From Aquilaria yunnanensis (lineage: Eukaryota; Streptophyta; Magnoliopsida; Malvales; Thymelaeaceae), in contig CM077593.1 of the NCBI GenBank assembly GCA_039654915.1, forward strand, positions 43,122,501 through 43,186,500: a stretch of DNA of 64,000 nucleotides. The letters are read 5' to 3'. The position numbers and the translations under genes were made by a program. The notes beneath the pieces are model-generated. The model saw only the letters and a program-made list of their open reading frames with translations, searched no databases and was not told the DNA's origin. Below, piece by piece: positions 1,435-38,808 of the stretch (positions are counted from its first letter, which is position 1; the number at the start of each line of letters is the position of its first letter).

Positions 1435-4400
1435 TGTTACCCACTCCAGGGTAGTCCAATTATGGTGCCAAAATTATGCATGTAGACTCCTAGGATTGGT
1501 AATGTTCTATAGGCCATCAGAACACTACCCTTAGTGTGCATACCCAAGTGGCCTTCTTGGGCACTATGTAAACACATGCATATTGGCCCAACCATCACAC
1601 ACATATTCAAATTTCATGCACACTATGGTACCAAAGAAGGAAAACACTAGCATAACTCTTAATCTTGACTACCACACATTTGGCAATCTTGTTAAGTTCT
1701 AGTGACCAGCCACTGCATCTATAACTTCGACTAATAAACTGTATCATTCTAGCCATGTACTCCTTTATTTTCTTTGCTCTATTATCAAGTATAGACTTGG
1801 ATCAAACCAGGGAATTTTTTTTTACATCAATAGCCCATCTATGGACCAAGTTATGAATTTTTTAAGTTGGTTACAAAATTCTGACCAAATGAATACTAAC
1901 TTAGCCAACTTAGCCAACTTTACAATGTCATATCTTTGGCTACAGGGCTCCAAATTCAGAAATTCTAAATCTTAGTTCAGCCTCTAGATGTTCTCTAGGC
2001 ATGATCAAAATTTCATACCAAGATTCCTTCTACACAGGGAGATATAGAACTTTAAGTACAGAGTCAAAATTCTAGTCACTTTATGACTATTTTGCCCATA
2101 CAAAATTTCATAAGTGTGAAAATACTTCATTCATAAGGGGAAAACCCTCCAAAGCTATCCCATATATCTCCATTACACATAGGAATTACATTCCCTTGAT
2201 TTTAACAACTTTATGTGGCCAAAACATAATTTAAAAGTAAGCAACCCATCATCCACATTTAGGCATTTTTGCACCACATCACTTACATAGCCAAAACACT
2301 ACTCAAATGTTCACATACTTGTCTCATTTTACATACACTACATGTACATGCATACATGCACTAAAAAAGGTCTTAACTCAGCTAAATACACACCCTAAGT
2401 TACATGAGTACCTGAGACACAATGGACTCTAGAACAGGATGCTGGACAGCTGCTGCACAACACAATAAGTACCATCACTAAAAATACCAAATGTGCTCCT
2501 AAAATCACCAAACTTTCCGGATCATAACTAGACACATGGAAGTTCATTTACATGAAATTTCAGATCAAAACTCAAACCAAAAGGGTCATTTTGAATGTGA
2601 TCTTTCTGCTGGACCTGAAATGACAGAATTGAGAGGAGTAAGTTTCATTGAGAAACTTAGTAAGGGTAACACTTGAATTCGATAGGCAATGTGACCATGA
2701 TCAAAACCTGCATCCAAAGACACTAAAACACAAAAACCACAATGCATATACACAAGATGCAGCAGCCATTCACAACCAACAAACACATGAAATGCAGCAG
2801 CAACAATAACCATAGGTTAATCCATAAAACACATAATAAACATAACCAAATCACTGTGGCAGCCTTCCTCAAGCTAATGCTTGGTCTCAGGAGGATTTTA
2901 ACATTAGTTAGTACTAACTTTGGGCTCTAGAAACCCTTATTTCACTGCCATCTTTGTGCACTTCACACTAGGTCACAAAACCTTCAATAAGTGCACTTCC
3001 TTCACTAAGCTTGGTTCATCAAGCTCATGACTCTCTTCCAAGCTTAGCCCTATCTCCATGGTTGTTTGTGTTAGTGTTGTGCGCAAAAGGCCAATCATGA
3101 GACGATTGTATTTTTGCACATTGAGTCATGATATTTTATTGAGGCATTAATCCAGCAATTTTGTTTGTTGTTTTGTTTCTGCGTAACGTAATAAACATAA
3201 TTGTAACCCTAGAATAATGATATTCCCAAACGCCCCTAGTCTAGTATTATTGTGGAGCGGGTTGCAATAATACATAATGACTAGCATATGTGGAGACTAA
3301 TATGAGATATGTAGTCTACATATGGGTACAAGTTGGAGAACTTGTGTACTGGACCGACCCACCATGAGAACACTTCATGGATCGTTATATGAGTGTCATA
3401 AGTGATTCTCATAGTGATCATGGTATATGTAGTCTTTCGACCTAAGATCATCAAGGTTCCCTACATGTGAGTCACATACTTTGATACTTTCCTTTGTTGC
3501 TCGTAACTGAGTGAACTTGAAGGTGGTCATTGGGTATGTCACATATCATGCGGAGGGATTTGTATGATCAAGATGGGATTTGTCCCTCCTATGTAACGGG
3601 AGTGATATCTTTGGGCCTCTTGATAGAGTAAGACTTAGAAAATGCATGGGCATGCTCCGATGAGTTGATATATGATATCAATGTCGTCAGTTTAAGTTGG
3701 TCTACTCGGTAATCAAGAAACCAAAGATTGGGCTATACGAGAGTGACACATTCCATGTCTCGTGCTTAGTCTTGATATCTTGGACAAAGGGACAATGGCA
3801 CATATCGGTGATGATCATAAAGGTTTAGTCGATTCACCGACAATCTTGTCACTTGGGTAGCAATGATGTGTTGCTAGACACCGCTCATTGCTTATGATCA
3901 TAAATGTGATTTATGATCATTGCCAACATGGCAAGAGCCTATTGGGTTGCACACGTAGAGCTATTTGGATCATTAGAGTGCATGGGCTAATTATTTGGGT
4001 TATGGTTTCACTTTAATTTCGTATTAATAATGGGCCAAGGAGTTGAGCCATTATTAAGCCCGAAATTAAATCCTAATTGGATTAGGGCTTTAAAACCCAT
4101 TAGGCCTGGAAGTTGAGTCTCACTATAAATACAACTTTTAAGTGAGAAATTCGAAGCTCTCCTTGGCCTAGCCTCCCAAAAGGACAGTCGCACTCTTCTC
4201 TTGCAATTCCTTGGAGGACGCAAGCTAGCACTGCGAGTGCAAGAGAAACGCATCTTCCGGGACATGGTGGAAGCGTGGTGATCCCGAGAGGCTCGTGTGG
4301 ATACCATAGAGAGCCTGAACACGTCAACTATTCAGGTTTTGTGATTCGACTCTACAGTTGAGTGAGAGATCTCAACCAAAAATTAGGTATGAAATTTTCG

Positions 4401-5339
4401 AACACCCGGTTTACCCCGTTTCACTTGGATCTTGGAGGGTTTCGGTTAAATTCTGCTGCGCTGTTTGGCTCCCGAAACCCAACAGTTTGAAAATATAGTA
4501 AACAATCCATGACAGCAAGAGAACCCTTACCTTGATGGGTATGCTAAAATTGGAGCTTGATCCTAGATGCACTCAAGCAATAGCACCAAATAGTTTCCAA
4601 TTGCTTCCTTTTGCCTTCAATTTCAATCAATTGCAAGTTTGAAGGTGTGATGGCTATGGTGGAAGTGTGGCTGTGTTCTTGGGCTAGAGGAGAATGAAAA
4701 TGAGAGAGGGATAAGTGATTTGGCCACTTAAATGGCCTTAAATGAGCTTACGGGCACAAAACACACCTAACAAGCTTAACTTTGCTTTATGTCATTTTCC
4801 TTCTGACTAATTATGGTTTCTTTGTCTTAAACTAATTGGTACACATGTGCCCAAAATTTTTGACTATTTATCAAGTCTTGGATGCCTCCCCCATGGTGGG
4901 CAAACCCCATAATTCCACCCTTAGACTTAAGTCAAAAGCTTGAACACCTTAAGGTTTATACTAAGACATTTAGGTCCTTAATGCCTTTAGTGTTTCCTTT
5001 GTCCAAACTTGTCTTCCATGAGCAATTTGGTCCTCCAATAGCACTTTCATACCATTCATATCCTTCCCAACACTCTCCAAGACTTTTTCTTGAGAGTTTT
5101 GCAATTGAGTACCCGAATTTCTAAAACCTTACAAAAAAGTCCATATGTTGCTTGAGAAACAAGCAATCCTTAAGGCTTTTCTTGGGGGCCAAGTTACTAA
5201 CTTGGAACACTTTTAAGGATGTGTTGATCATGCCTTTTACCCTTCACACTTCAATCACTATGGTGAGAATTACACAATAAAATGGTTTTTAGCCACTATG
5301 ACACACTTGTAATTCCCCCATTTTTGTGAGGTGGTAACA
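1435..5339 (-). repeat. Solo LTR delta (TSD TATTT), split by an F1 copy
   Basis: The unit begins TGTTACC and ends GGTAACA, a 7-bp inverted terminus with TG...CA, and is flanked by TATTT at 1430-1434 and 5340-5344. Without the nested F1 copy and its duplicated target it is about 2.48 kb. No PBS, gag or pol is present, so it is a solo LTR left by recombination. Minus orientation is my preference because the minus strand reads into a CT-rich leader-like stretch near 4.7 kb; I could not confirm it. No protein-coding ORF in it is convincing. Confidence 0.8.
3069..4484 (+). repeat. F1 solo LTR, copy 2 (TSD GTTTG)
   Basis: This is a complete 1416-bp F1 unit running from TGTTAGTGTTGTGC to GGCTCCCGAAACCCAACA. 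It is flanked by GTTTG at 3064-3068 and 4485-4489. A TATA box (ACTATAAATACAAC) lies near 4122, and the downstream transcribed part ends at the right edge. It is inserted in solo LTR delta. It has no internal domain. The superfamily is unknown, because no member in the window carries coding sequence. Confidence 0.92.
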
Positions 5340-7268: not shown

Positions 7269-7989
7269 TGTTATAGCTGTCCTAGTGAAATGTTTGGTAA
7301 GCGAGGTAAATCCATAAATCCCTAGCTTAACTACCTTAATTAAAGGTGAATTATTAAGATCAAGTAAGTTATTAAAGGTTTAGTTGATTCCGAGTGGTTT
7401 ATGGCACTATGTTTGCCTGGGGGCAGATGGCCATTTTACACCTCGGAGAGTCGAGACGAGTCTCCAAGAGTAAAAATGAAATTTTTGAAACATAAAGGCC
7501 AAGTTAGCAAAGTTTTTCTAAGTGTTCCTTTACCTAGTTACTATTTGGGGAAGGAGTTTTTTTGCAAGTTTTAAAAACTTTTGAAGGGGGAAAGGCTTTA
7601 TTGCTATTTATACTTGTTGAAAGGCTGGGGCTCGCAATATTCCTCCCATTTCCAGCCCAAATTCGCATCTCACTCTTCCTTTCTTCATCTTTTGCTCAAA
7701 TCTTCACAACTTCATGGTTTCTTGCCAAAATTAGAAGGCTTTCATGTTGCCCAAGCAAGAGGAAGCTTGTTCTACACTTGTTTTGGTGTTTTTGAAGCTC
7801 TTGGAGGTGTTTTCTAGCTTTGGCAAGCTTGTGTGTGTGAGGTAACCTTTTGCCCATGTTGTTTTCTCATTTCTTGAGCTTAATCAAGCTGGGGTTTTGT
7901 TGGGTGTATGATAATTTGGTGCCATAAGCCTTGCATTTTGCTTGGAACTTAGGAAATCTAGTGGAACCCATGGATTGTTGAATGCTTGT
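7269..7989 (+). repeat. Solo LTR beta, left segment
   Basis: It starts TGTTATAGCTGTCCTAGTG, close to the start of LTR alpha (TGTTACGGCCCTTCTAGTG), and shares with alpha the stretch around 7430 that reads through a GAGACGAGTCTCC motif. Element E is inserted after 7989 and beta resumes at 22738. Target duplications are GATTA (7264-7268) and AGTTA (24842-24846), two transitions apart. Removing beta rejoins the env-like ORF in frame. The whole LTR is about 2.8 kb. Confidence 0.75.
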
Positions 7990-9385
7990 TGATGCATACT
8001 CGTAAGTGTATTGTTATTAAGAGTTTAAATCATCATTATACACTTTGATTATGATTAATTTCTATATTCTGAGCATTTTTCCACCGAGTCACTATTCATA
8101 TATTTTTACTATTCATCAAGTCACTATTCACCAACTTACTATTCATACATGTATTTCACTGTTCGCACTCATATTTTACTGTTCATACATGTTTTACTAT
8201 TCATCAATATTAAATAATTATTTTTTACGTAGGTAAAATCATCACTTGGCGACCATTGACGAAAAAAATCATATCTGAAGCTGTAGATGTCGGAACTGAG
8301 TGATTCCAAATTTATCTGAAAGCCAATACATAGATCCTCAACTCTACTTCATTCGCGAGCTTGTTTGATCATTTTCATTGCTGAAATCTGATTATAGATG
8401 AGACCCTTTGTTATTTCATGTGCCGAAGAGCAGTTTCCGTAGAAAAATCACAACTTGAGTTACAGATGTCCAATTTGAAAGAGCAAGCTATCAATTCGAA
8501 GCTAAAGAGGAGATCTACAACTTCCAAGCTTTCAGGAAGAGCTGATCTGATGTCTACAATGGTTGAAAAATTAAAAGAAGTTGCAGCCCGCCATTATTGA
8601 TTTGTATTTACCTACATTTTACCATTTCATTTTTACCATTTCACCCACCCCAAAACTCTATAAATAGGCACCTTGGCGGCAGGGTGAAGAATGCCATTTT
8701 TCTTAGGCTTCCTTTATGTTCTTGTATCATTTTTAGATTTTCTCCTTTGTTCTTGTTCTTATTTTCAATACCGAAGCTCTATCCAAGTGTTTTCTCGTTC
8801 TTGTTCTTGATCTTGTTCTTTCTTTTGATCTTTCAATCCATGCTCATTTCATCTTTCTACATGTTGTTTACTTTTATCATGACTAACTAATCTTTCTTTT
8901 GCTAAGGTGAAAGGGTGAAGCTTTTGGTATAAAGGTTATGATTGATTTGAATGGATCACAACGTTAATGCTATTTTCTTCCTTAATCTATTTAACTTTCC
9001 TCCTTGTTAAGTGGGAGTCTTGATTCATCATAGTCAATCATTGGCACAAAAGCTGGTTGATTCCCTCTGTAGAACATGCCTCTACCAGCTATATTGGAAT
9101 CTTGAGCTATTGTCGACAAAGGTTGGCATGATGGATACTTGAACCCATTAGCAAGTGTTGGCGTTTTAAGATGAATGAAAGTTAATACTAACTAAATTCC
9201 GCCTTTTGGGACCTCATTTATGTGTGGATCTCAATTGAGTGGTAAGATTGACTAAAATTAATCATAATCGATATACTAAAAGTGGATCCCCCAACCTTAG
9301 TTATTTTATTTGAATTTGAGTTTTTAATCAACACCTGTTCACACCATGCACCAATATCTTTCCTTATTACCAAATCTATAATTTG
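7990..9385 (+). repeat. Element E 5' LTR (3' end missing)
   Basis: It aligns with the 3' LTR from its first base to 9385. After that the 3' LTR continues for 99 bp to its CAGCA end, whereas this copy jumps to gag leader sequence. The end of the LTR and the primer-binding site are therefore deleted. A TATA-like CTCTATAAATAGGCACC lies near 8658. This copy could not start a normal replication cycle now. Confidence 0.85.
8088..8205 (+). repeat. ACTATTCAT repeat cluster in the 5' LTR of E
   Basis: Seven imperfect copies of ACTATTCAT or ACTGTTCAT are spaced 13-21 bp apart, upstream of the LTR TATA box. Such clusters in LTR U3 regions are often transcription-factor binding arrays. No factor can be named from the sequence. 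Confidence 0.7.
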
Positions 9386-9431
9386 TACATCAAGTGGTAG
9401 ACTGGTGAGAGAATCTTCAACTTCTTCAAAC

Positions 9432-10970
9432 ATGGCTTAACACATTAATGAACAAGAAGATAATGATTCTCTTCATAATGACCAAGATTGACTTAGGACA
9501 CTTAGAGAACACATGAACCCCATAAGAAATAGCACATCATCATGTCTAATTTTTCTGCTGATGCATGTAATTTCAATTTCAATTTCAAGCCAGGTATTAT
9601 TCAACTTTTACCAACTTTTTATGGCTTTGATTTTGAAAATCCTTACTTGCATCTGAGAGAATTTGAGGAAGTCTGTCATACATATAACAACCTAAACTGT
9701 AGCATGAACACCATTAGGCTTAAGCTTTTTCCTTTTTCTTTAAAAGATTAAGCTAAAACTTGGCTACAGAATCTTAGGTCAAGCTTCGTTAATTCATGGG
9801 ATGAACTGCAATAACAATTTTTGAAAAAAAATTTTCCTGCCCATAGAACAAATTCTTTCAAAAGGCAAACCACCACTTTCACATAAAGACTAGGAGAGAC
9901 TTTTTACCAATTTTGGGATAGATACAAAGATTTACTTAACACATGCCCACACCATGGTTTTGAAACTTGGAGATTAGTCTCACATTTTTACGAAGGTTTG
10001 ACACCTAGGGAAATACAAATGGTAGAAATGATGTGTAATGGAACATTTGAGGATAAAGATCCTGATGAGGCAATGGATTACCTAGACTTGTTAGCAGAGA
10101 ATGCACAGAATTGGGACACCGCTGGTACCTATGAGGCCCCAGGTAAGACTCAAACCCTTGCATCTAGTGGAGGCATATATCATCTTAAAGAAGATAATGA
10201 CCTTTAACCAAAATTTGCATCTCTAGCTAGAAAGGTTGAGGCCTTAGAAATGAAGAAAACTGGTCACTTAAAATATGTTGAAGAAGTTGTTTGTCATATT
10301 TGTGAGGCCAATAACCATCCCACTAGCAATTGCCCAACCTTGCCCACTTTCAAAGAATGTCTCCATGAACAAGTTAATGCATTGAACAACTTTGAGAGAC
10401 CAACCCAAAATCCATACTTGCAAACTTACAATCCTGGTTGGAGGAATCATTCAAATTTTAGTTGGAGAGGTGATAATTATGCTCAATCATCACAACCACC
10501 TTTGCACACCCAACAAAATTTTCAACAATCTCAAGGGTATGCACCATATGTTCCTCCTCTTAGGAAAAATCTTGAAGATACATTGCATTCATTCATTGAA
10601 AAGCAAGAGTCAATCAATGCCCAAACAAGTCAAACCATGATTGATTTGAAGGATATTTTTGCAAAAATTGCATCTGCACTCAACATTTAGGAGAAAGGGA
10701 AATTTCCTTCTCAACCACAACCAAATCCCAAAAATCAAACCATGGATCAAGTGAAGTAAATCATTACACTTCATAGCGGTAAGGTTGTTGAAAAATCCAT
10801 TCTTGATCCTTGTGAAGAAGACGGTGAGTCAACTTCTAAGAGTAAAGAAGGGGTTGAACCTATACCAAGCGTTGAACAAATTGAAACTCCACCTGCACCT
10901 CCATTTCCTCATGCATTAACTGCTCCTAAGAAGGTGAATAAGAATCCTAAAATTCTTGATATCTTCAAGT
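9432..10970 (+). pseudogene. Element E gag
   Basis: This is the structural capsid protein of an Athila-like element. The start at ATG 9432 is followed by a stop at the third codon (TAA). The readable parts give the capsid region (GIIQLLPTFYGFDFENPYLH near 9594, then the WDRYKDLLNTCPHHGFETW stretch near 9915) and a C-x2-C-x4-H-x4-C zinc knuckle at 10292-10333 (CHICEANNHPTSNC). The Asn/Gln-rich TYNPGWRNHSNFSW segment near 10425 is typical of Athila-type gag. In-frame stops occur at 9438, 9489, 9750, 9813, 9882, 10206, 10689 and 10758, several as TAA or TAG where CAA or CAG is expected. It is not functional as it stands. Confidence 0.85.
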
Positions 10971-11487
10971 AGGTAAAGATCAATATCCCCTTGTTGGATG
11001 CGATTAAACAGGTACCTTCTTATGCCAAATTTTTGAAGGATTTGTGCACTATTAAAAGAAACCTGAATGTGAAAAAGAAAGCCTTCTTGGCCGAACAGGT
11101 AAGTTCTATTATTCAAAATAACACTGCTTTGAAATACACGGATCTTGGTTGTCGAACAATTTCATGTTTCATTGGAGAACATAAAATTGAGCAAGCATTA
11201 CTTGATCTTGGGGCTAGTGTAAACTTACTTCCATATTCAGTTTACCAAAAACTAAATTTAGGTGAGTTAAAACTAACCGAAATAACTCTTTTGCTTGCTG
11301 AGAGATCAGCGAAAATGCCCAGAGGAGTCATTGAAGATGTGTTAGTCCAAGTTGATAAATTTATTTATCCAGTGTATTTTATTATTTTGGACACACCACT
11401 AGTGGAAATTAAAAATTCAATACCTGTTATTTTGGGAAGTTCATTTTTAGCAACATCTAATGCTTTGATTAATTGCAGGAATGGATT
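10971..11487 (+). pseudogene. Element E protease (aspartic), N-terminal part
   Basis: The stretch from about 10991 runs open to the insertion of LTR alpha. It carries the linker KQVPSYAKFLKDLCT seen before Athila proteases and the catalytic motif LLDLGASVNLLP near 11201, where Athila enzymes use DLGA in place of DTGA. The flap and the second hydrophobic motif (IPVILGSSFLATSNALINC) follow. The ORF is interrupted after NCRNG by alpha and resumes at 13928. Its usual job is to cut the Gag-Pol polyprotein in the virus-like particle. Confidence 0.85.
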
Positions 11488-13927
11488 TGTTACGGCCCTT
11501 CTAGTGGGAGGTAAGGACTTTAGAATTTAGTTTAGAAGTTTAATTTAAGTTTGCCTAGCAAGAATTTAGAAGTTTGCCAAAGTTCACTAAGTTCCGACAA
11601 GAATAAAGCTCTGAACTAAGTTCAGGGGCAAAATGGTAATTTTGCACCCTGAGTGGCCGGGACGAGTCCCGAGTGTTTTAAAATGAATTTTTAGAACTTA
11701 ACTTTTAACCTTAACTCAAACTCAACAAATAGACAAGAATTTAATCAAGAACTGTTAAGTTACAAAGATGGGGGACCTAATTGCACTTAACTTGAAACCT
11801 TGGTGATCTTGGTTGCTAAGTGAGGGTTTAAGAAGGGAAAGAGGGGGAGAAGCTGCCATTAACACGTTCTTAAGCTTCCCTCACTCATTTCTCTCTCAAA
11901 TTGAACTTGGAATCAAGTGATCTTGGTGTCAAGAGGCGCAATTAAGGATGTTCAAGCTTGGAGAAGTGATTTTCAAGCTTGAATCCTTGTTTTTGAAGCT
12001 TGAAAGGGCGTTTTTCTCCATCCCCTATTTTTGAACGAGGTATGAGTTATGTTCTTGATTGAATTCGTGTTATTTGGTTGATTGGAAGCTTGGGTTTTGG
12101 TTGAAAGATGTGTTTTTGATGTTTTAGAGCTTTGTTTTGGTATGGTTTTGTGTAGAACTTTGGAAGCTTGTTTGGAAGAGGAAGGGTTCGAATTCTTGCT
12201 TGTTCTTGGTGTTAAGGTAAGGGAGAAAGTGTTTTTAAGTTGTTGGATTGCTTTTGGATTGAAATGGATTGAGAAAGTTGAGTAATTTTTTGTTATGGTA
12301 TGAAGAAACGTTTTGGGAATTATGATGGACTAGCTAAATTCGAAGGGTTGGTTTGATGCTTCTAATGCATCATAGTTTGGCTTTGATAGTTGGTTTTGTT
12401 CCTTGCAACATGTACTTCATGTGTATGAAATTTGGTAACTTTTGATGCATGTTTGCTATATGTATTTGGTTGCCAAAGTTCATAGCAGCAATCGGCCAAA
12501 TTCTGCATTTTTGCAGAATTGGCGACGCGGCGCCAATTCGCCCGACGATTGGCGACGCGTCGCCAATCCAATTTTTGTTCACAGAGCGTTTGTTCGTTGG
12601 CGACGCGTCGCCAATTCCTTTTGCCTTTGGCGACGCGGCGCCAACACCTAAAAATGGGGGGTTTGACTTTTTGCTGCGTTGACCCGACCGAGACTACGGA
12701 AGGTTCGGAACGTGCCTAAGGGTCCGAGGATCCCGATGGTACTCCGAGACTTCCGAAAGTCCCACCGGAAGTATGAGTTTTCTTGAACTGTTTGAGGTAA
12801 GTAAGTTGCTTAGGCAACAAGTAAGGAAACAAATGTTGCAATTGAACTTAATTAGCTATCAATAGCTCAGGTGAGAGGTTTAGAACCCTCGTCGGCCTAG
12901 CCGTGCCGAAGCCACGAGGCCACGAGGCGAAACCTTGTTCATCTAGTTTACATCAAAGAGGCCCTGTGGCCTAGTCTACAAGTCCCGTCATAAATTCCCC
13001 TGCATAACAATTAGGTGAGAGGTTTTATGATTGTTTGGGGCTTGCTAAGGTTCGCCCTTGGGCCATATGTGTCAGGTTGCTAAGTGATTACGCTTGGCCT
13101 GATACAGAGGACTACTTGAGGAGAGGTCTACCGACCTAGTATATATATATAGACTAGTACCCTCATGCTGTGTGAGCTCGCAGCCAGAGTCCTAGCTTTT
13201 TCTTGCAGGTACATCGAAGACCCTTACTGAGAATTGTTGAATTATCACTCCCTGTTTGTTATGCAGAGCCTGGAGTAGCAGGACCGGATAATCGCTGAGG
13301 ATTATCACGGTAGTACCTTTTTGTCTGTAAACGTACGGTAGTTGAGAAACTTTAAGTTTCTAGCTTGCTTAAGTGTTTAGTTGGTCTGTTGGTCAGGCTG
13401 TGGTACTAACTTGCTTCTTCCTTTGGCTGCAGAGCCTAGTAGCACTTGGCAAAGGACTTGTGAGACTCGCCACTGGGACAGGAGTCCAAAGTGGGAGCTA
13501 GGGTAAAAGATCTCAGCAAAGTCTTGTATTTTGATACAGTACTTTATTTTGCCTCCAGTATTTATGTTATAAAGAGTCCTTGACTCAGGGGATTGTTCTC
13601 TGGGTGAGAGCATTAGTTACTTATGTATAAATGCTTTCACGAGCGGTGTATGTGTAGTTAATCACTCAAAGGTTGATTTTGATATGCTTTGGCATTTTGT
13701 ATTTATTTATATAGAATTTTACTTAGCCGGCTAAATGTCTAAATGATTAAATGTTTTATGGTTTTAATAAACCAAGTCAAAGCATAAGTGCATACATATT
13801 GCATTTCTAGATTAATCAACTAGTAGCATTGGATTTAATCCACACACATAACCAACTAGCCAATTACAATCCACCGTGAGACAAACGCTCACAGGGTATC
13901 CCGGGCAAGGGCACGGGGATCGTGTCA
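11488..13927 (+). repeat. Solo LTR alpha (TSD GGATT)
   Basis: This 2440-bp unit starts TGTTACGGCCC and ends GGGATCGTGTCA, flanked by GGATT at 11483-11487 and 13928-13932. Excising it restores the protease reading frame across the junction. It shares its start, end and several internal blocks with LTRs beta and gamma, so the three form one family. No internal coding region is present. A tract of CpG-rich palindromes lies at 12517-12644. Confidence 0.9.
12517..12644. repeat. Cluster of four CpG-rich palindromes in LTR alpha
   Basis: The 18-bp perfect palindrome TTGGCGACGCGTCGCCAA occurs at 12549-12566 and 12597-12614. The variant with GCGGCG in the right arm occurs at 12519-12536 and 12627-12644. 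The copy at 12547-12568 is a perfect 22-bp palindrome. The motif stands out in an AT-rich LTR. LTR gamma has the same cluster in decayed form. Confidence 0.9.
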
Positions 13928-14512
13928 GGATTGATGAAGTTGACATTTGGGAATATGACATTGGATTTAAATATTTTCAATTTGCTTAAGCAACCTCCTG
14001 AAAAAGAAGATGAAGGAGAAGATGTTTGTGTTATTAACACAACTAAGGAAAATTATATCCAAGGAGGGAGTATCTCTGATCCTTTGGAAAATTGTTTAGT
14101 TAATTCATTTGAATCAAATATGCATGTAGATCAGGATACATTTGACATTTGTGCGTTGTTTGATTCTTCACAGGTAGAGGGAAGCACATGTTGGACACCA
14201 GAAATTGAAGAATTAGGAAAACCTAAAGTTGAAGAGCAAATTAAAATCCACACAACAAAGTTGAAACTCTTGCCCAAACAATTGAAGTATCGAATGTCAA
14301 AGAAAGATGCTAAATCAAGGCTTATTCACTGGATCATATTACTCCAAGAATTTAACATTGTGATCAAGGATAAGAAGGGCACCAAAAATATTGTCCCTAA
14401 CTATTTGCCAAGACTGACAATGAATTCGACAATTGAGGCTAAACCCATAAATTATTATTTTCCTGACAAATTTCTATTTTCTGTCACTACAGTACCTTGG
14501 TTTGCTAATATT
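13928..14512 (+). pseudogene. Element E protease tail joined to RNase H tail (RT deleted)
   Basis: The ORF resumes with LMKLTFGNMTLDLNIFN, the Athila protease C-terminus, then an acidic linker. Near 14275-14300 it reads KLLPKQLKYR and passes directly to MSKKDAKSRLIHWIILLQEF. In intact Athila pol these two segments flank the whole reverse transcriptase and RNase H. The deletion is in frame, so a 198-codon ORF from 13922 stays open. The sequence ends at VPWFANI, where an F1 LTR is inserted (TSD ATATT), and resumes at 17353. No polymerase activity is possible. Confidence 0.82.
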
Positions 14513-17347
14513 TGTTAGTGTTGTGCCCAAAAAGCCAATCATGAGATGATTGTATTTTTGCACATTGAGTCATGATATTTTATTAAGGCATTAATCCAGC
14601 AATTATGTTTGTTGTTTTGTTTCTGCGTAACTTAAACATAATTGTAACCCTAGAATAATGATATTCTGAAACAACCCTGGTCTAGTATTATTGTGCAGTA
14701 GGTTGCAATAATATGTAACGACTAGCATATGTGGGGACTAATATGAGATATGTAGTCTACATATGGGTACAAGTTGGAGAACTTGTGTACTGGACCGACC
14801 CACCATGAGAACACTACATGGATCGTTATATGAGTGTCATAAGTGATTCTCATAGTAATCAAGGTATATGTAGCCCTTCGACCTAAGATCATCAAGGTTC
14901 CCTACATGTGAGTCACATACTTTGATACTTTCCTTTGTTGCTCGTAACTGAGTGAACTTGAAGGTGGTCATTGGGTATGTCACATATCATGCGAAGGGAT
15001 TTGTATGATCAAGATGGGATTTGTCCCTCCTATGTAACGGAAGTGATATCTTCGGGCCCCTTGATAGAGTAAGACTTAGAAAAATGCATGGCCATGCTCA
15101 GATGAGTTGATTTACGATATCAATGTCATCAGTTTAAGTTGGTATACTCGATAATTAAGAAACCAAAGATTGGGCTATACGAGAGTGACACATTCCATGT
15201 CTCGTGCTTACTCTTGATATCTTGGACAAAGCGACAATGGCATATATCGGTGATGATCATAAAGGTTTAGTCGAATCATCGACAATCTTGTCACTTGGGT
15301 AGCAATGATGTGTTGCTAGACATCACTCATTGCTTATGATCATAAATGTGACTTATGATCATTGCCAACGTGGTAAGAGCCTATTGGGTCACACACATAG
15401 AGCTATTTGGATCATTAGAGTGCATGGGCTAATAATTTGGGTTTTGGTTTCACAATAATTTCGCATTAATAATGGGCCCAATAGTTGAACCATTATTAAG
15501 CCCGAAATTAAAGCCGAATTGGATTAGGGCTTTGAAACCTATTAGGCCTGGAAGTTGAGTCTCACTATAAATACAACTTCTAGTGAGAAATTCGTAGGTC
15601 TCCTTACCCTAGCCTCCCAAAAGGATAGCCGCACTCTTCTCTTGCAATTCCTTGGAGGACGTAAGCTAGCACTGCGAGCGCAAGAGAAACGCATCTACCG
15701 GGACATGGTGGAAGCGTGGTGATCCCGAGAGGCTCATGTGGATACCATAGAGTGTTAGTATTGTGCCCAAAAAGCCAATCATGAGATGATTGTATTTTTG
15801 CACATTGAGTCATGATATTTTATTGAGGCATTAATCCAGCAATTTTGTTTATTGTTATGTTTCTGCGTAACATAATAAACATAATTGTAACCCTAGAATA
15901 ATGATATTCTTAAACGTCCCTAGTCTAGTATTATTGTGGAGCGGGTTGCAATAATACATAATGACTAGCATATGTGGAGACTAATATGAGATATGTAGTC
16001 TACATATGGGTACAAGTTGGAGAACTTGTGTACTGGACCGACCCACCATGAGAACACTTCATGGATCGTTATATGAGTGTCATAAGTGATTCTCATAGTG
16101 ATCATGGTATATGTAGTCCTTCAACCTAAGATCAGCAAGGTTCCCTACATGTGAGTCACATACTTTGATACTTTCCTTTGTTGCTCGTAACTGAGTGAAC
16201 TTGAAGGAGGTCATTGGGTATGTCACATATCATGCGGAGGGATTTGTATGATCAAGATGGGATTTGTCCCTCCTATGTAACGGGAGTGATATCTTTGGGC
16301 TCCTTGATAGAGTGAGACTTAGAAAATGCATGGCCATGCTCTGATGAGTTGATATATGATATCAATGTCGTCAGTTTAAGTTGGTCTACTCGGTAATCAA
16401 GAAACCAAAGATTGGGCTATACGAGAGTGACACATTCCATGTCTCGTGCTTAGTCTTGATATCTTGGACAAAGGGACAATGGCATATATCGGTGATGATC
16501 ATAAAGGTTTAGTCGATTCACCGACAATCTTGTCACTTGGGTAGCAATGATGTGTTGCTAGACACCGTTCATTGCTTATGATCATAAATGTGATTTATGA
16601 TCATTGCCAACATGGCAAGAGCCTATTGGGTCGCACACATAGAGCTATTTGGATCATTAGAGTGCATGGGCTAATTATTTGGGTTATGGTTTCACTTTAA
16701 TTTCGTATTAATAATGGGCCAAGGAGTTGAGCCATTATTAAGCCCGAAATTAAATCCTAATTGGATTAGGGCTTTGAAACCCATTAGGCCTGGAAGTTGA
16801 GTCTCACTATAAATACAACTTTTAAGTGAGAAATTCGCAGGTCTCCTTGCCCTAGCCTCCCAAAAGGACAGCCGCACTCTTCTCTTGCAATTCCTTGGAG
16901 GACGCAAGCTAACACTGCGAGCGCAAGAGAAACGCATCTGCCGGGACGTGGTGGAAGCGGGGTGATCCCGAGAGGCTCGTGTGGATACCATAGAGAGCCT
17001 GAACACGTCAACTGTTCAGGTTTTGTGATTTGACTTTACAGTTGAGTGAGAGATCTCAACCAAAAATTAGGTATGAAATTTTCGAACACCCGGTTTACCC
17101 CGTTTCACTTGGATCCTGGAGGGTTTCGGTTAAATTCTGCTGCGCTGTTTGGCTCCCGAAACCCAACATAGAGAGCCTGAACACGTCAACTGTTCAGGTT
17201 TTGAGATTCGAATCTACAGTTGAGTGAGAGATCTCAGCCAAAAATTAGGTATGAAAATTTTCGAACACCTGGTTTACCCCGTTTCACTTGGATCCTGGGG
17301 GGTTTCGGTTAAATTCCGCTGCGCTGTTTGGCTCCCGAAACCCATCA
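14513..17347 (+). repeat. F1 solo LTR, copy 3A (TSD ATATT), split by copy 3B
   Basis: The outer F1 copy runs 14513-15752 and 17174-17347 and is flanked by ATATT at 14508-14512 and 17348-17352. Its right end reads CCCATCA in place of CCCAACA. It is interrupted in its transcribed 3' part by copy 3B. Removing both restores the integrase reading frame of element E. Confidence 0.92.
15753..17168 (+). repeat. F1 solo LTR, copy 3B, nested in copy 3A (TSD TAGAG)
   Basis: This is a full 1416-bp F1 unit flanked by TAGAG at 15748-15752 and 17169-17173. It sits in the part of copy 3A about 170 bp before its right end. It is very close in sequence to copies 2 and 4, so it is among the younger insertions here. 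Confidence 0.93.
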
Positions 17348-17352
17348 ATATT

Positions 17353-17681
17353 ATCAACTTTTTGGTGACAGGATGGATACCAGGTCAATGGAGTATCCAA
17401 GATAAAAAGAAATTTCTACATGAGGTGACAAATTTTTATTGGGATGATTCTTATCTTTTCAAATATTGTCCTGACCAGATATTTACGAGATGCATACCTG
17501 AGAATAAGGTAAAAAGTGTGATTGAATTTTCTCTTTTTGAAACGTGTTTTTGTCAAAGAAAACAGCTGTAAAGATTTTGCTGTCTGAATTTTACTGGCCC
17601 TCTTTGTTTAAAGACGCACATGCATTCTGCAAAGCCTTTGAAAATTGTCAAAAAGTAGAATCCATTTCTTTCTGGTTAGGT
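17353..17681 (+). pseudogene. Element E integrase N-terminal fragment
   Basis: The first part (GQWSIQDKKKFLHEVTNFYWDDSYLFKYC) and the later FYWPSLFKDAHAFCKAFENCQ belong to the HHCC zinc-binding N-terminus of an Athila integrase. A short deletion and frame change near 17535 removes the middle of the zinc domain. The catalytic DDE core and everything after FENCQK is missing; sequence of a different character follows at about 17670. It is not functional. Confidence 0.78.
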
Positions 17682-17774
17682 GGCGGATACGGTACTCTGT
17701 GGCTCTCAAGTCGGTTATCTCAGTTTCCCATAATAACTTATTTCTTTCTCTCATCTCTCAATTTTTTCTCACCA

Positions 17775-18323
17775 ATGGATTCTGTTCTTTCTGCTTTATG
17801 AATCTACTTTCCCTCTCTCCCAATAAATGTTCTTAAAAGGATTTACCAAGCTAGATGTGAACAATTAAGAGTTTTGATGCACAAAGGCATTCCTAAAGAT
17901 GCGCATTGGTTAATTGAAGCTAAGGTCTGTTTGGTTGGTGAAACCCTAGATACATTTGTGTCTCATATGCCTGGCTTAGGCAAAAGCTCTTATGCCAAAA
18001 AGCGTAGAGCGAAAAGGTTACGAGTTTGTCATAAATGTGGTCGATGGACTTGTGATACTAGATGTCATTATTTAGAAATGGTGTCCGATAATCGAGAAGA
18101 TAAAATACAATACATCAAGAATGGCCTGAGTAAGGATTCTTTGGATAATATCCAATTGACTCTTGAGACGCATTCTTGTGGATTAGTGCAACATGAACTT
18201 TTTGGTTTATGGAGTATTTTTCGTAAAGAACGAAAGCGTTATAGTCTTGGGAGTCTGACTTTAAAAGACCCTATTTGCCAGTTTGTAAGAAAACTGGATG
18301 GGAAGCAAATCCCCAACTCTTAG
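17775..18323 (+). pseudogene. Accessory ORF of element E: basic cysteine-rich protein resembling carlavirus nucleic-acid-binding protein
   Basis: The ORF begins at ATG 17775, has one TGA at 17799 (the CGA-to-TGA type of change) and then stays open to 18323, about 183 codons. Near the middle a basic run passes straight into a cysteine cluster: SSYAKKRRAKRLRVCHKC, followed by a C-x2-C-x4-C-x3-C spacing. This order resembles the small cysteine-rich nucleic-acid-binding proteins of carlaviruses (Carla_C4 family), some of which suppress RNA silencing or act in the host nucleus. The Ser/Lys-rich C-terminal half is unlike those short viral proteins and I do not recognise it. It lies between the integrase scrap and the LOG-like ORF. 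Similarity is by motif only; it could be a retroelement-specific zinc-finger protein that converged on this pattern. Confidence 0.6.
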
Positions 18324-18480
18324 AAGGTGTTGAAGCCGTTACTAGACGTAAAACCAGAGGAAGCTATGAGCCACAGTCACAACTACTGTCCATACACACC
18401 ATTATTGTTGAATTTTTTTTTCTTCTGAAAATAATCTACCTACTCTTGTAGGTGTAATCAATGCATTATCCTTTTATCTC

Positions 18481-18487
18481 TATAAAT
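18481..18487 (+). promoter_or_regulatory. TATA box upstream of the LOG-like ORF
   Basis: TATAAAT in a CT-rich setting lies 44 bp before the ATG of the LOG-like ORF, leaving room for a start site about 30 bp downstream and a very short leader. It is far from the LTR promoters, which suggests an independent transcript for the accessory gene. Confidence 0.5.
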
Positions 18488-18530
18488 GCACGTTCTTCTT
18501 TTGATTTTTTTCACACGGTTAAGGATAGAA

Positions 18531-19113
18531 ATGGAAGGAACCTCAACTCACAAATTCTAAAATATTTGTGTATTTTGTGGATCTTTTCCTGGAAAAGATG
18601 AAGAGTTCTTGAGGGCAGCCAACCATTTGGGTAGAGTACTAGTTGAGCGAAAATACATTTGGTTTATGGGGGAGGTAGTATCGGATTGATCGGAGGTGTA
18701 GCAATAGCATCATTTGTAGGGGGTAGCCAAGTTTTGGGTATCATCCCTACACCTTTGAAACTGATTTCTGGAGGCACGATTGGAGAAGAATTAGAAGTTA
18801 AAAACTTGCAAGAGCGTTTGTTGCAAATGCTTTGTAATTCAGATGGCTTTATTGCTCTACTAGGAGAGTTTGGCACTTTGGGGGAAAATTTTCAAATTGT
18901 TTCCATGGCACAACTTAATTTGCACAAAAAACCCATTGGTCTGTTGAATGTTAACAATTTCTTCACAGGTTTGTTATCTTTTATGGATCATGCTATGTAG
19001 GAGAAATTTATCTCAGAGACGGTACGACGGATCCTAATATCTGCATCAACTGCTGAAGAATTGATAGACAAAATGCAAGCTTTCATTCCTAAACCAGATC
19101 TAGTAGTGATTTA
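18531..19113 (+). pseudogene. LOG-like: Captured LOG-like cytokinin riboside 5'-monophosphate phosphoribohydrolase
   Basis: LOG enzymes release free cytokinin base from its nucleotide in the plant cytosol. The ORF starts at ATG 18531. After a TAA at 18558 it reads NICVFCGSFPGKDEEF, the LOG N-terminal signature. A one-base deletion near 18658 then shifts frame into LVYGGGSIGLIGGVA, and the rest follows to 19113 with one more stop (TAG at 18998). Also visible are the motif region FIALLGEFGTLGE (family consensus PGGxGTxxE), AQLNLHKKPIGLLNVNNF and a C-terminal SASTAEELIDKMQ. Length, about 194 codons, fits the family. The Arg expected before the motif is Cys here, and the Pro and second Gly are changed, all explicable by C-to-T or G-to-A. 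Plant LOG genes have several introns, whereas this copy has none. That and its place inside E point to capture from an mRNA. Confidence 0.88.
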
Positions 19114-19195
19114 GATAAACTGGACACGACAGTCTTTCTCAATCAGTTCCATCCCATAAGTATCATTTACCCTACTTGTCATTTTTATTTTCGTT

Positions 19196-19201
19196 AATAA
19201 A
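19196..19201 (+). terminator. AATAAA polyadenylation signal after the LOG-like ORF
   Basis: AATAAA lies 83 bp downstream of the LOG stop in a T-rich context. Together with the TATA box at 18481 it gives the accessory gene the outline of a self-contained transcription unit. Confidence 0.4.
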
Positions 19202-21211
19202 TGAGAAACACTATGGAGGAGAGCAATTAGACTTGTGAATCTTTTTATCTTGTCTTTTATTTTTACTATCAGCATTTTTTTTATTTTGGTTTAAGTTATT
19301 TCAGGTTTTTCATTTTCAATAACTACCATTTCAGGTAATTTCTTCTTCACTCTTCTTATCTATATTTTGACATTGGGGACAATGTCTTAATCTAGTTGGG
19401 GGGAAGGGATTGTTGATATTTGATTTTTTTTTTAGTTTAGTTTCTCTCATGCTGATATTAAAAAAATTAGACAAAACACTTAGTTTAAGATGGCTGAGTA
19501 AAAAGTAATTTTTCACTCTTGAGACGCATCCTATTTTATGTGACATCCATAACATTTTTTTTCCTTGCAAGCATGAATAGTTGCATGTAGGAACATTTAG
19601 CTGAATTTAGGTTGTTTGTTTGCATTTAGGAACCCAACTCATGGAAATGTCATCATTGGATGTATACCTTGTAAATTTGAAATGGTTGTTAATTTTTAAA
19701 AGCAATTAAAGTATGTTGCTTGTTATCTAAGGAAAATAAATAACCGGTGAGTACTTTTGAGCCCTTAGTGTTTATTAGGATGTGTGAATTTCTTTGTTGA
19801 GAGTGCTTACTTTGTGTTTTGAGCTAGACCTTGCTTGGATGGGTGACCTTAAGGACCCATACATCCTCACTTCTTGTATGTAAATTTAAGGAAGAAGATG
19901 GCATTTTAGGGCCAACTACTTACCAAAAGGCTAACCTTGTATATTATCCCTTAGTTAACCCCTTTGAGCCTTATAGCCTTATTCTTTGTTTGAACCCTGT
20001 ATGTTTAAACACTTCCACTTCATTTTGATCCTTTATTATCCTTGGAACTAGTGATGCTTATATGATTATGGGCTTAAAGAATTAAAATGAATGTGTTGTT
20101 TTTTGTAAAATAAAGAATAAGTGTGGGGTGTACTTCAGAATATGTTAGGTTACATTGTGCTTAATTTGTCATAGTGAAAAAATTGGGGTGGGTTGAGCTT
20201 AAATCATAAAACTTGAGTGTATATCATTGGATGGTTGAGTTTTAAACAAATTTTGATTTGTGGTAGAAAAGGGAAAAAGCGAGATCATAAGAAAAAACCA
20301 TCACAAAATAAAGTATATATATCTATATATATATATATATATATAGATAAATTAAATTAAAAAAAAAGACTCTTTGTTTCATAATACTTAGCCTTTTTTT
20401 CTTTTATGGCAGTCTAAAAAAAAATTGTTCTCTTTCCTTTTCAAATAAAATTATATATGCTCATACCCATGTGGAATCCTTACTAAAGCAAAGATGAAAG
20501 ACATATTCTTTTATCTTTTTCTGACAAATAAATGCATAATCAGGGGAGACAGTTAAAAAAAAAAAAAATAGCTTCAGCCTTAATATTTGTGCAAATCCAA
20601 TGAGGCCAACCATTTTGAAACGGAGAGAGGTAAAAAAAAAAAAGAGAAAAGGAAAAAAATTGTTAAATTCAATAAGCTTGAAAATCAACCTTATTTGTTT
20701 TCTAAACTCATGTGTTGTTAAGGAATTGTGTTTTGGAGAGGACTTGGAGACTAGGGTTGAATTGGGTATTTAGTGTTTTAGGTGCCCACATTTATTGTAT
20801 TACTAGTTCTCTTAAACTCCACCATTAAAAAGCCTCAATTCGATTCCCACTTTCACCAAACCCAGCCTCATTACAACCTTTTATAAAGACCATTGGACTT
20901 AAATTTACATTCAGTTCCCTTTTGGGAATCTAGTGAGGGTGAAGTTAGATCTTCTTGCAAGATCCGGATTGAGAAAAATAAAGTAAGCTGTTCACAAACT
21001 CACCTTAAAATAAGTGCAAATACTTAAGGAGTGATTCTTTGCCTATGGTAACAATGACTTACTTTTTCTCCTTTCATTAATTACTTGCAAGTCAAGTTTA
21101 CAAGTGCTATATATTCATAGCATGATTTGTCATGAGTTGTTAGATTATGTATTTTGTTCATTTTCTTAGGTTACACTTGCTAGGGACTAGCAAGAACCTG
21201 GTTGGGGGGTG
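19202..21211 (+). other. Element E 3' untranslated tract, microsatellite and polypurine tract
   Basis: No convincing ORF is present. A block near 19369 (GACATTGGGGACAATGTC, then TAGTTGGGGGGAAGGG) is the kind of G-rich tract Athila elements carry after their last ORF. An (AT)n microsatellite lies at about 20314-20346, and several A-runs follow. The purine run GGTTGGGGGGTG at 21200-21211 directly abuts the 3' LTR and is the likely primer for plus-strand synthesis. Confidence 0.65.
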
Positions 21212-22732
21212 TGATGAATACTCATAAGTGTATTGTTATTAAGGGTTTAAATCATCATTATATACTTTGATTATGATTAATTTCTATATTCTGAGCATTT
21301 TTTCACCGGGTTACTATTCATGCATTTTTTCTATTCATACGCATTTTTACTATTCATTGAGTTACTCTTCACCGAGTCATTATTCACTAGTCACTATTCA
21401 TGCACATATTTCACTGTTCACACGCATATTTTACTGTTCATATGTGTTTTACTATTCATCAATATTAAATAATTATTTTTTACGTAGGTAAAATCATCAC
21501 TTGGCGATCATTCACAAAAAAAATCATATCTGGAGGTGTAGATGTTGGAACTGAGTGATTCTAAATTTATCTGAAAGCCAACACATAGATCTTCAACTTT
21601 GCTCCATTCTGCAAGTTAGTTTGATTGTTTTCATTGCTGAAATCTTATTATAGATGAGACCCTTCGTTATTTTATGTGCTGAAGAGCAGTTTCGGTAGAA
21701 AAATCATAACTTGAGTTACGGATGTCCGATTTGAATGAGAAAGCTATTGATTCGAAGCTAAAGAGGAGATCTACAACTCCGTGCTTTAAGGAAGAGCTAA
21801 TATGATGTTTGTGATGGTTGAAAAATTAAAAGAAGTTGCAGCCCGCCATTATTGATTTGTTTTTACCTACATTTTACCATTTTATTTTTACCATTTCACC
21901 CACCCCAAAACTCTATAAATAGGCACCTTGGGGGCAGGGTGAAGAATGCCATTTTTCTTAGGCTTCCTTTATGTTCTTGTATCATTTTTAGATTTTCTCC
22001 TTTGTTCTTGTTCTTATTTTCAATACCGAAGCTCTGTCCAAGTGTTTTCTCGTTCTTGTTTGTGTTCTTTCTTTTGATCTTTCAATCCATGCTCATTTCA
22101 TCTTTCTACATGTTGTTTACTTTTATCATGACTAACTAATCTTTCTTTTGCTAAGGTGAAAAGGTGAAGCTTTTGGTATAAAGGTTATGATTGATTTGAA
22201 TAGATCACAACGTTAATGCTATTTTCTTCCTTAATCTATTTAACTTTCCTCCTTGTTAAGTGGGAGTCTTGATTCATCATAGTCAATCATTGGCACAAAA
22301 GCTGGTTGATTCCCTCTGTAGAACATGCCTCTACCGGCTATATTGGAATCTTGAGCTATTGTCGACAAAGGTTGGCATGATGGATACTTGAACCCATTAG
22401 CAAGTGTTAGCATTTTAAGATCAATGAAAGTTAATACTAACTAAATTCCCCTTTTGGGACCTCCTTTATGTGTGGATCTCAATTGAGTGGTAAGATTGGC
22501 TAAAATTAATCATAACCAATATACTAAAAGTGGATCTCCTAACCTTAGTTATTTTATTTGAATTTGAGTTTTTAATCAACACCTGTTCACACCTTGCACC
22601 AATAACTTTCCTTATTACCAAATCTATAATTTGAATTTCTTAATTCACTTCCCTGTGGTTCGACACTTGGACTCCTGAGATTTTATTACTTGCGACAACC
22701 TACCCTTGGGTTACAACTGCTAGAGCGCAGCA
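21212..22732 (+). repeat. Element E 3' LTR
   Basis: This is the complete 1521-bp LTR. It starts TGATGAATACTC, ends TAGAGCGCAGCA and is followed by the CTTGT duplication. It matches the 5' LTR throughout 7990-9385 with scattered substitutions and small length changes. The ACTATTCAT-type cluster at about 21311-21460 is longer than in the 5' LTR. TATA (CTCTATAAATAGGCACC) lies near 21911. Confidence 0.9.
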
Positions 22733-22737
22733 CTTGT

Positions 22738-37331: not shown

Positions 37332-37392
37332 TTTTGCACCGTATGTGGGAACTCCCTTTTAGGTCACCATTGTTGAGACCCGGCGTTCTAAG
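37300..37392 (+). pseudogene. Element N gag, first segment
   Basis: Translation from ATG 37300 gives MSNNEDATGHHFAPYVGTPF, reads through the primer-binding site, meets a TAG at 37360 and continues VTIVETRRSK to the F1 insertion. It aligns with M gag, which begins MSYSKDADGHHLAPSVG. It resumes at 38814 and then at 61393 after element T. Confidence 0.78.
37334..37350 (+). other. Element N primer-binding site
   Basis: TTGCACCGTATGTGGGA begins 2 bp after the LTR end and corresponds to TGGCACCGTCTGTGGGA in M and many plant gypsy elements, with two substitutions. It would pair with the 3' end of a tRNA primer. Confidence 0.65.
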
Positions 37393-38808
37393 TGTTAGTG
37401 TTGTGCCCAAAAAGCCAATCATGAGATGATTGTATTTTTGCAAATTGAGTCATGATATTTTATTGAGGCATTAATCCAGCAATTTTGTTTGTTGTTTTGT
37501 TTCTGCGTAACGTAATAAACATAATTGTAACCCTAGAATAATGATATTCTTAAACGTCCCTAGTCTAGTATTATTGTGGAGCGGGTTGCAATAATACATA
37601 ATGACTAGCATATGTGGAGACTAATATGAGATATGTAGTCTACATATGGGTACAAGTTGGAGAACTTGTGTACTGGACCGACCCACCATGAGAACACTTC
37701 ATGGATCGTTATATGAGTGTCATAAGTGATTCTCATAGTGATCATGGTATATGTAGTCCTTCGACCTAAGATCATCAAGGTTCCCTACATGTGAGTCACA
37801 TACTTTGATACTTTCCTTTGTTGCTCGTAACTGAGTGAACTTGAAGGAGGTCATTGGGTATGTCACATATCATGCGGAGGGATTTGTATGATCAAGATGG
37901 GATTTGTCCCTCCTATGTAACGGGAGTGATATCTTTGGGCCCCTTGATAGAGTGAGACTTAGAAAATGCATGGCCATGCTCCGATGAGTTGATATATGAT
38001 ATCAATGTCATCAGTTTAAGTTAGTCTACTCGGTAATCAAGAAACCAAAGATTGGGCTATACGAGAGTGACACATTCCATGTCTCGTGCTTAGTCTTGAT
38101 ATCTTGGACAAAGGGACAATGGCATATATCGGTGATGATCATAAAGGTTTAGTCGATTCACCGACAATCTTGTCACTTGGGTAGCAATGATGTGTTGCTA
38201 GACACCGCTCATTGCTTATGATCATAAATGTGATTTATGATCATTGCCAACATGGCAAGAGCCTATTGGGTCGCACACGTAGAGCTATTTGGATCATTAG
38301 AGTGCATGGGCTAATTATTTGGGTTATGGTTTCACTTTAATTTCGTATTAATAATGGGCCAAGGAGTTGAGCCATTATTAAGCCCGAAATTAAATCCTAA
38401 TTGGATTAGGGTTTTGAAACCCATTAGGCCTGGAAGTTGAGTCTCACTATAAATACAACTTTTAAGTGAGAAATTCGAAGGTCTCCTTGCCCTAGCCTCC
38501 CAAAAGGACAGCCGCACTCTTCTCTTGCAATTCCTTGGAGGACGCAAGCTAGCACTGCGAGCGCAAGAGAAACGCATCTGCCGGGACGTGGTGGAAGAGT
38601 AGTGATCCCGAGAGGCTCGTGTGGATACCATAGAGAGCCTGAACACGTCAACTATTCAGGTTTTGTGATTCGACTCTACAGTTGAGTGAGAGATCTCAAC
38701 CGAAAATTAGGTATGAAATTTTCGAACACCCGGTTTACCCCGTTTCACTTGGATCCTGAAGGGTTTCGGTTAAATTCCGCTGCGCTGTTTGGCTCCCGAA
38801 ACCCAACA
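37393..38808 (+). repeat. F1 solo LTR, copy 4 (TSD CTAAG)
   Basis: A 1416-bp F1 unit with CTAAG at 37388-37392 and 38809-38813. It is inserted in the N gag between the codons for TRRSK and DKG. TATA near 38452. Confidence 0.94.

Follow-up and report, generated by a model that had tools for sequence, protein, structure and literature searches.

Why should a plant retrotransposon carry a gene from a hormone pathway, and would that gene still do its original work? The question is raised by a stretch of 64,000 nucleotides of Aquilaria yunnanensis DNA (assembly GCA_039654915.1, contig CM077593.1, positions 43,122,501 to 43,186,500, forward strand), hereafter the window, in which a gene related to the LONELY GUY (LOG) enzymes lies inside a long terminal repeat (LTR) retrotransposon. 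This element, E, is bounded at window positions 7990-22732 by the 5-bp target-site duplication (TSD) CTTGT and is an old, decayed Ty3/gypsy-type element with two accessory genes after pol: one for a virus-type nucleic-acid-binding protein (NABP) and the LOG-derived gene. The anatomy is firm: LOG in LTR elements, a known oddity, belongs to a cassette of two genes, the other of which is of virus type. What the two genes do we infer from their sequences, and the reading that we favor, at a probability of roughly 55%, is that NABP and LOG form a selected, virus-like accessory module of plant LTR elements in which LOG has acquired a changed substrate or role.

The cassette is laid out as follows, where L001 is a LOG-less relative of E described below.

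17674..17774, + strand: leader 5′ of the NABP gene, part-conserved with L001
17775..18323, + strand: NABP gene (virus-type nucleic-acid-binding/cysteine-rich protein), 182 codons, early stop at codon 9
18324..18385, + strand: conserved 62-bp stretch directly 3′ of the NABP stop, from the L001 alignment
18481..18486, + strand: TATAAA 5′ of LOG, common to relatives
18531..19114, + strand: LOG-derived gene, broken, with stops at 18558 (TAA), 18998 (TAG), and 19112 (TAG) and a frameshift near 18655
19329..19410, + strand: conserved polypurine-type block 3′ of LOG, where the L001 alignment resumes

The initial annotation had described an intronless LOG gene within an LTR retrotransposon, and both the identity of the gene and its residence in an element bounded by LTRs and a TSD were borne out. 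The open stretch at 18659-18997 matches Arabidopsis At2g37210 (PDB 2a33) at E = 2e-27 and At5g11950 at 8.9e-23, and Pfam family PF03641 is matched by the window LOG at E = 5.9e-20 and by one open copy of a second, young element family at 9.8e-33. Comparison of positions 18481-19201 with the plant LOG P0219 by tblastn gave 128 bits, against no more than 23.9 bits for 500 dinucleotide shuffles (24.6 bits for the best shuffle over three LOG queries), and these scores rule out chance similarity. The two-frame layout also stands, with ME...ICVFCGSFPGKD in one frame and HLVYGGGSIGLIGG...GEFGTLGE...LLNVNNF in the next, as does the single frameshift. The earlier count of two stops does not, since comparison with other copies gives three internal ones: the supposedly terminal TAG at 19112 is in frame, and other copies run on for about 13 residues. 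At the PGGxGTxxE position the window copy reads LGEFGTLGE. The TATAAA at 18481 and the AATAAA at 19196, both pointed out earlier, are present. The TATAAA is common to relatives, being found in 36/40 copies of E's family and in all 19 young loci with a recognizable LOG start (22 tried), at 40 or 48 bp upstream of the ATG; the AATAAA is conserved in just 3/40 and 0/19 of these, respectively. That E captured a host LOG mRNA is plausible. An exon-length query recovered no recognizable host LOG exons among the best 150 of 3288 candidates, which are 50-56% identical and were read as element copies.

Directly upstream of LOG, and overlooked in the initial annotation, lies the NABP open reading frame (ORF), which matches PF05515 (Viral_NABP) at E = 1.7e-7 and PF01623 (Carla_C4) at E = 2.4e-6. 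Its homologues comprise 225 database proteins, of which 120 were listed. Xanthoceras, Populus, and Orobanche are named sources among the matches listed, and Parasponia and Striga are further ones among the matches listed in a short-query search. When 81 members were aligned (80 of the best 120 listed proteins plus L001), PF05515 was found in 67 and PF01623 in 65 at E <= 1e-3, with no other family in any of them, and PF05515 was above the Pfam cut-off in members tested singly. The layout common to the alignments is a basic region and then a C-x2-C-x4-C-x3-C finger, from which single rows deviate. The noncoding stretches on either side of NABP (17674-17774 and 18324-18385) align with L001 as well; the second looks at least as strongly conserved as the gene itself and may be an RNA signal or a splice region.

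The NABP-LOG pair is a standing feature common to E's family and to a second family that is larger, very young, and seemingly unrelated to it. The host genome was searched over 842 Mb, of which about 805 Mb lie on eight contigs (C1-C8) of 87-120 Mb each, suggesting eight chromosomes. A LOG protein query returned 3604 candidates, and 132 of the best 150 that were scored lack a stop by hand count; an NABP query returned 8504, and all of the best 150 scored are open and 97-98% identical to P0001. Because the scored places are the best-scoring ones, intact copies are over-represented on both lists. Judged by eye from coordinates, a listed LOG place follows on the same strand about 2-3 kb downstream for at least 21 of the 150 NABP places, a lower bound since the lists are cut short. 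Reading of 20 loci gave 17 of the young type and 3 of the E type, and a second NABP gene, whole or partial, was present within the fetched 1.5 kb in 15 of the 17. All five longer young loci, which were picked for the presence of both genes on the top-score lists, contain three tandem NABP genes followed by a stop-free LOG match. At the protein level the three NABP paralogues are about 70% identical; A and B are free of stops at all five of these loci, and C is intact at two of them. Long upstream frames occur in three of the five: L078 has PF03732 (gag), L076 has a protease match that is weak and under the cut-off, and L075 has nothing above the cut-off. No match to the L001 integrase was obtained by tblastn in the five longer loci and the flanks of two, in a search that did not directly target reverse transcriptase. 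Gag-only non-autonomous LTR elements of the TR-GAG type exist; compared with that type, the young family, with gag and no integrase found, adds three NABP genes and a LOG.

The youth of this family is evident from two bounded copies, whose LTR pairs are 99.87% (2283 bp) and 100% (2551 bp) identical. Their TSDs, read by eye, are GTGAG and GTTAA, and both have a TTGGCGACTCC sequence resembling a primer-binding site directly 3′ of the 5′ LTR. The gag of the young family does not match that of E (BLASTP E >= 0.17), the two proteases match weakly (0.008), and blastn of a young copy (L078-L080) against E leaves NABP, LOG, and a short piece after them as the common parts. We provisionally take the young family to be Tat/Ogre-like and E to be Athila-like. 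The cassette has apparently been swapped between element families, and it has been amplified recently. In those young elements that were compared, LOG is followed by a minisatellite of roughly 50-bp units (starting at about 9500 in L078 and running into L080). On contig C4 two young-type cassettes stand 15.7 kb apart on the same strand (G000:C4 ~2504653 and ~2520335), perhaps in tandem elements that share an LTR. Contig pairs of equal size (4511, 2425, and 1558) on the NABP and LOG lists were set aside as proof of linkage and kept as a hint only; chance size pairs do occur, because a fourth pair (799; P0021 and P0237) is too short for both genes.

Within E's own family, the 40 scored LOG copies (the best 40 of 1607 candidates, the window's own included) are 88-100% identical, and NABP adjoins LOG in every one of the 40, on eight large contigs. 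LOG is stop-free over compared residues 1-199 in two of them, one of which has a stop shortly after. The integrase core is gone in six of seven sister copies with 1.5-kb flanks, at the same break as in E, and kept in one; copies without the core have multiplied (for example, L003, L004, and L006-L009), and L005 retains it.

An order of arrival is suggested by L001 (DAIEQH010000041.1), a 3330-bp contig from another assembly that is filed as a Candidatus Nomurabacteria metagenome-assembled genome. Its content is plant-type Ty3/gypsy DNA, that is, contamination of the bacterial bin. An open RNase H-integrase frame is followed directly after pol by an open 182-aa NABP, and LOG gave no match in this contig; NABP therefore occurs without LOG. 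To the left and right of the LOG gap the flanks align with E, with 1671-2409 corresponding to 17674-18385 and 2533-2616 to 19329-19410. Arrival of LOG after NABP would be the simpler reading, and loss of LOG in L001 the alternative.

One rival to a module with a changed LOG, which we consider unlikely, is that the element LOG is still an ordinary cytokinin activator, whose cytokinin would promote cell division and so the spread of copies. This was assessed on a tree of 118 rows (117 proteins of at least 160 aa from the best 120 of 242, plus the window), in which one group unites the 12 plant LOGs (SH-aLRT 94) and a second holds the window together with 103 other rows (96). The label element-type, given to 106 rows, reflects observed residence in elements for this host and, elsewhere, the tree and multi-copy clusters. 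In branch length, the distance to the plant LOGs is smaller for element LOGs than for the two outgroup rows. With the residue numbering of CgLOG (PMC4979012) and up to two rows per site without a residue or outside the counts, R99 is kept in 98 of the 106 rows, E121 in 102, E122 in 96, and W129 in 83. The retention of R99 and E122 would suit a cytokinin activator, as would the purifying selection on LOG described below and the five basal rows that keep both K100 and E125. Against it, K100 and E125 are changed in all but those same five rows, the window having L and Q, whereas 12/12 plant LOGs and 2/2 outgroup rows keep both; H97 is changed in most element-type rows, and the copies of this host mostly lack E121 and W129 too. 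The available text of PMC4979012 assigns adenine- and prenyl-binding roles to the residues lost, and reports that substitution of the tested AMP-binding or catalytic residues abolishes activity almost fully, with one exception. Because K100 and E125 of the adenine/prenyl pocket are lost, the product of the element LOG is probably not an ordinary cytokinin activator, and the earlier label of a cytokinin-activating gene becomes doubtful. At the C-terminus, an LxLxL ending is found in 55/106 element-type rows (50/75 of those of at least 205 aa) and is preceded by a basic run in 53 of the 55. Whole-sequence shuffles end this way in 0.4% of cases and none of the 12 plant LOGs does; on the tree the label requires seven changes over 94 labeled rows. 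As a general feature the ending was rejected, since it is present in other plants and missing from the copies of this host.

Evidence for selection comes from pairwise ratios of nonsynonymous to synonymous divergence (dN/dS, by the NG86 method). For NABP, with the L075 copies, the values are 0.17 for A against L001, 0.23 for A/B, 0.18 for A/C, 0.33 for B/C, and 0.21 for A against the window, and L001 against the window gives 0.27. For LOG they are 0.23-0.27 for young against open old copies, 0.21 for the window against L075, and 0.11-0.42 among young copies, twelve of which show 26 silent and 17 replacement codon differences. The between-lineage values, mostly about 0.2-0.3, indicate purifying selection on both NABP and LOG.

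A number of observations weigh against a selected, virus-like module with a LOG of plant origin. Polymorphism in E's family is almost flat over codon positions (for example, 29/32/34 singletons in the longer LOG part), which indicates that these copies decay neutrally. The catalytic Arg R99 is present in 26/40 of them and the Glu in 37/40, a loss of R99 that we ascribe to decay. Constraint on NABP B is weak (0.37, 0.39, and 0.75 among young copies; 0.55-0.61 against the window), NABP C gives 0.35-0.43 against the window, and two LOG pairs stand out, L056 and L035 at 2.08 on eight changes and L051 and L054 at 0.42. The roles of the pocket residues were mapped by motif, not by structure, and the LxLxL tail occurs in 0/40 E-family copies and in none of the young LOGs compared. 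For NABP, a PDB search gave nothing significant, scans of viral contigs found no relatives, and the viral kinship is drawn from profile matches. In regard to the plant origin of LOG, the scores that two presumably bacterial LOGs reach against the window are about as good as those of plant LOGs, and the tree was rooted by hand on two presumably bacterial rows.

Such neutral decay, together with the broken window copy and the little-constrained NABP B pairs, is what one would expect if LOG and NABP were neutral passengers, caught by chance and copied along with the elements. We regard this as improbable, given that the between-lineage dN/dS of both genes disfavors it and that three NABP paralogues have diverged to about 70% identity with A and B still stop-free at every longer locus. 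Very improbable, in our estimation, is an origin of the NABP-LOG block from an endogenous plant RNA virus, a piece of which would have integrated into the element. NABP is a virus-type gene, and the available text of PMC12172455 places the ORF of the mandarivirus cysteine-rich protein (CRP) at the 3′ end of the genome. Like the NABP/CRP of carla-, allexi-, and mandariviruses, the element protein combines a basic region with a CCCC finger and matches PF05515. Unlike them, it follows pol or gag, occurs once or three times in tandem, measures about 182 aa, and has no viral neighbors in view; element NABPs sit in retrotransposons and not 3′-terminally in a viral genome. The surrounding ORFs that were scanned hold no other virus domain, replicase, movement, and coat genes not having been sought singly. 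The viral-contig scans revealed no virus genome with NABP followed by LOG, and of the best 120 of 280 proteins from a short-query profile search with NABP, none bears the name of a virus. The position of NABP directly after pol in L001 and the branch lengths, which place element LOGs nearer than the outgroup rows to plant LOGs, also speak against a viral block, and we know of no flexivirus with a LOG. Finally, insertion of LOG into E as an independent processed pseudogene, a notion for which the intronless state of LOG might be cited, is refuted, because the same neighbor gene stands in the same place in 40/40 copies on eight large contigs and again in a second carrier family.

We return, then, to the NABP-LOG pair as a selected accessory module, whose mechanism we infer as follows. 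The pair would work as a virus-like module made alongside gag. NABP would bind nucleic acid and, like its relatives in carlaviruses and mandariviruses, could either dampen RNA silencing or reprogram transcription; in the available text of PMC12172455, viral CRPs are silencing suppressors and CVB p12 is a transcription factor that causes hyperplasia. The LOG-derived protein appears to have largely kept its ribose-phosphate-cleaving core (R99, E122, and the GT loop) and lost its prenyl pocket. It is likelier to act on another nucleotide 5′-monophosphate, or to serve as a nucleotide-binding regulator, than to be a normal cytokinin activator. The basic run and LxLxL end seen in many related plants resemble EAR co-repressor motifs. 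Both proteins may favor the expression of element copies and their spread in dividing cells. An intronless LOG copy presumably joined an element that already bore NABP, after which recombination or template switching could have carried the cassette from one element family to another. A bolder version, which we put forward tentatively, is that of a mobile virus-like module of one to three virus-type silencing-suppressor genes and a substrate-changed LOG enzyme or sensor, with an LxLxL tail in many plants, that is selected, is swapped between unrelated families, and drives recent amplification even without an integrase of its own.

The remaining parts of E are listed below.

7985..7989, strand not assigned: left copy of the TSD CTTGT, from the boundary analysis of E
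7990..9400, + strand: 5′ LTR; similarity stops at about 9385-9400 and the 3′ end is lost
9533..10687, + strand: gag remnants in stop-free pieces; PF03732 at E = 3.3e-4 (9887-10204), below the family cut-off
10973..11527, + strand: aspartic protease remnant; PF13650 at E = 5.2e-5 (10991-11527), at the cut-off, and 5.7e-5 (10973-11527), just below it
13880..14512, + strand: RNase H region and beginning of the integrase region; 14281-14512 corresponds to L001 pol 85-316 in the alignment
14513..17347, strand not assigned: nested LTR insertion, a tandem array of a unit of about 1.4 kb resembling an LTR, with ATATT on both sides (read by eye)
17348..17653, + strand: integrase zinc-binding region, aligning with L001 312-627; the integrase core is missing downstream
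21212..22732, + strand: 3′ LTR, from the LTR-to-LTR alignment
22733..22737, strand not assigned: right copy of the TSD CTTGT, from the boundary analysis of E

The LTR pair of E is identical in 1317 of 1402 aligned columns (93.9%), for a Kimura two-parameter distance of 0.064. A primer-binding site was looked for behind the 5′ LTR and not found; we read this loss as decay of E and not as a sign that E falls outside the LTR retrotransposons. The LTR-like unit of about 1.4 kb is present at four places in the window (3068-4484, 14513-17347, 37391-38808, and 57526-58941) at 95-98% identity; inside E, copies of it, some whole and some partial, stand in tandem.

How much of this was known? Two Athila-like elements similar to LOGL4 are reportedly mentioned in the abstract of Steinbauerova et al. 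2011. The initial annotation knew of no LTR element family carrying LOG, and that claim of novelty fails, because LOG-type domains in plant Ty3/gypsy elements are already published. Alvarado-Marchena et al. 2022 (PMC9289625), who cite Steinbauerova et al. 2011, report a YgdH/LOG domain in the Gypsy consensuses of two Citrus species and, with the filter off, in Populus trichocarpa, within a survey of 15 domains in 121 genomes; among the domains named in the available text, NABP does not occur. Those elements resemble E in carrying a LOG domain in plant Ty3/gypsy DNA, and Citrus LOGs fall on the window's side of our tree. They differ in that the available text mentions no virus-type NABP, integrase-less carrier, or changed pocket. 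The orchid Gypsy element with an AlkB m6A demethylase, described in the same text, is a further case of a plant LTR element that has acquired a gene for an enzyme; the enzyme is another one, and no virus-type partner is mentioned there. In Retand and Grande, accessory ORFs also lie between pol and the 3′ LTR, according to the available text of PMC11963269, whose reference list includes a title on an accessory gene of Grande that has a promoter of its own. Their known-domain ORFs are antisense and mostly TRP28, whereas NABP and LOG here are sense. The window itself has, at 61966-62883 on the - strand, a 305-aa ORF with a weak match (E = 0.0056, below the cut-off) to Transposase_28, the domain of antisense ORFs in Retand elements. 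We found no report of the NABP-LOG pairing in the open-access literature, and the pairing, its spread in a very young family, and the altered LOG pocket look new.

If the proposed functions hold, these families would offer a case in which a plant retrotransposon pairs a virus-type counter-defense gene with a re-tooled enzyme of a hormone pathway. They would also provide a system in which the recently spread copies carry accessory cargo and not pol, and the reason why plant LTR elements keep extra ORFs would become directly testable.
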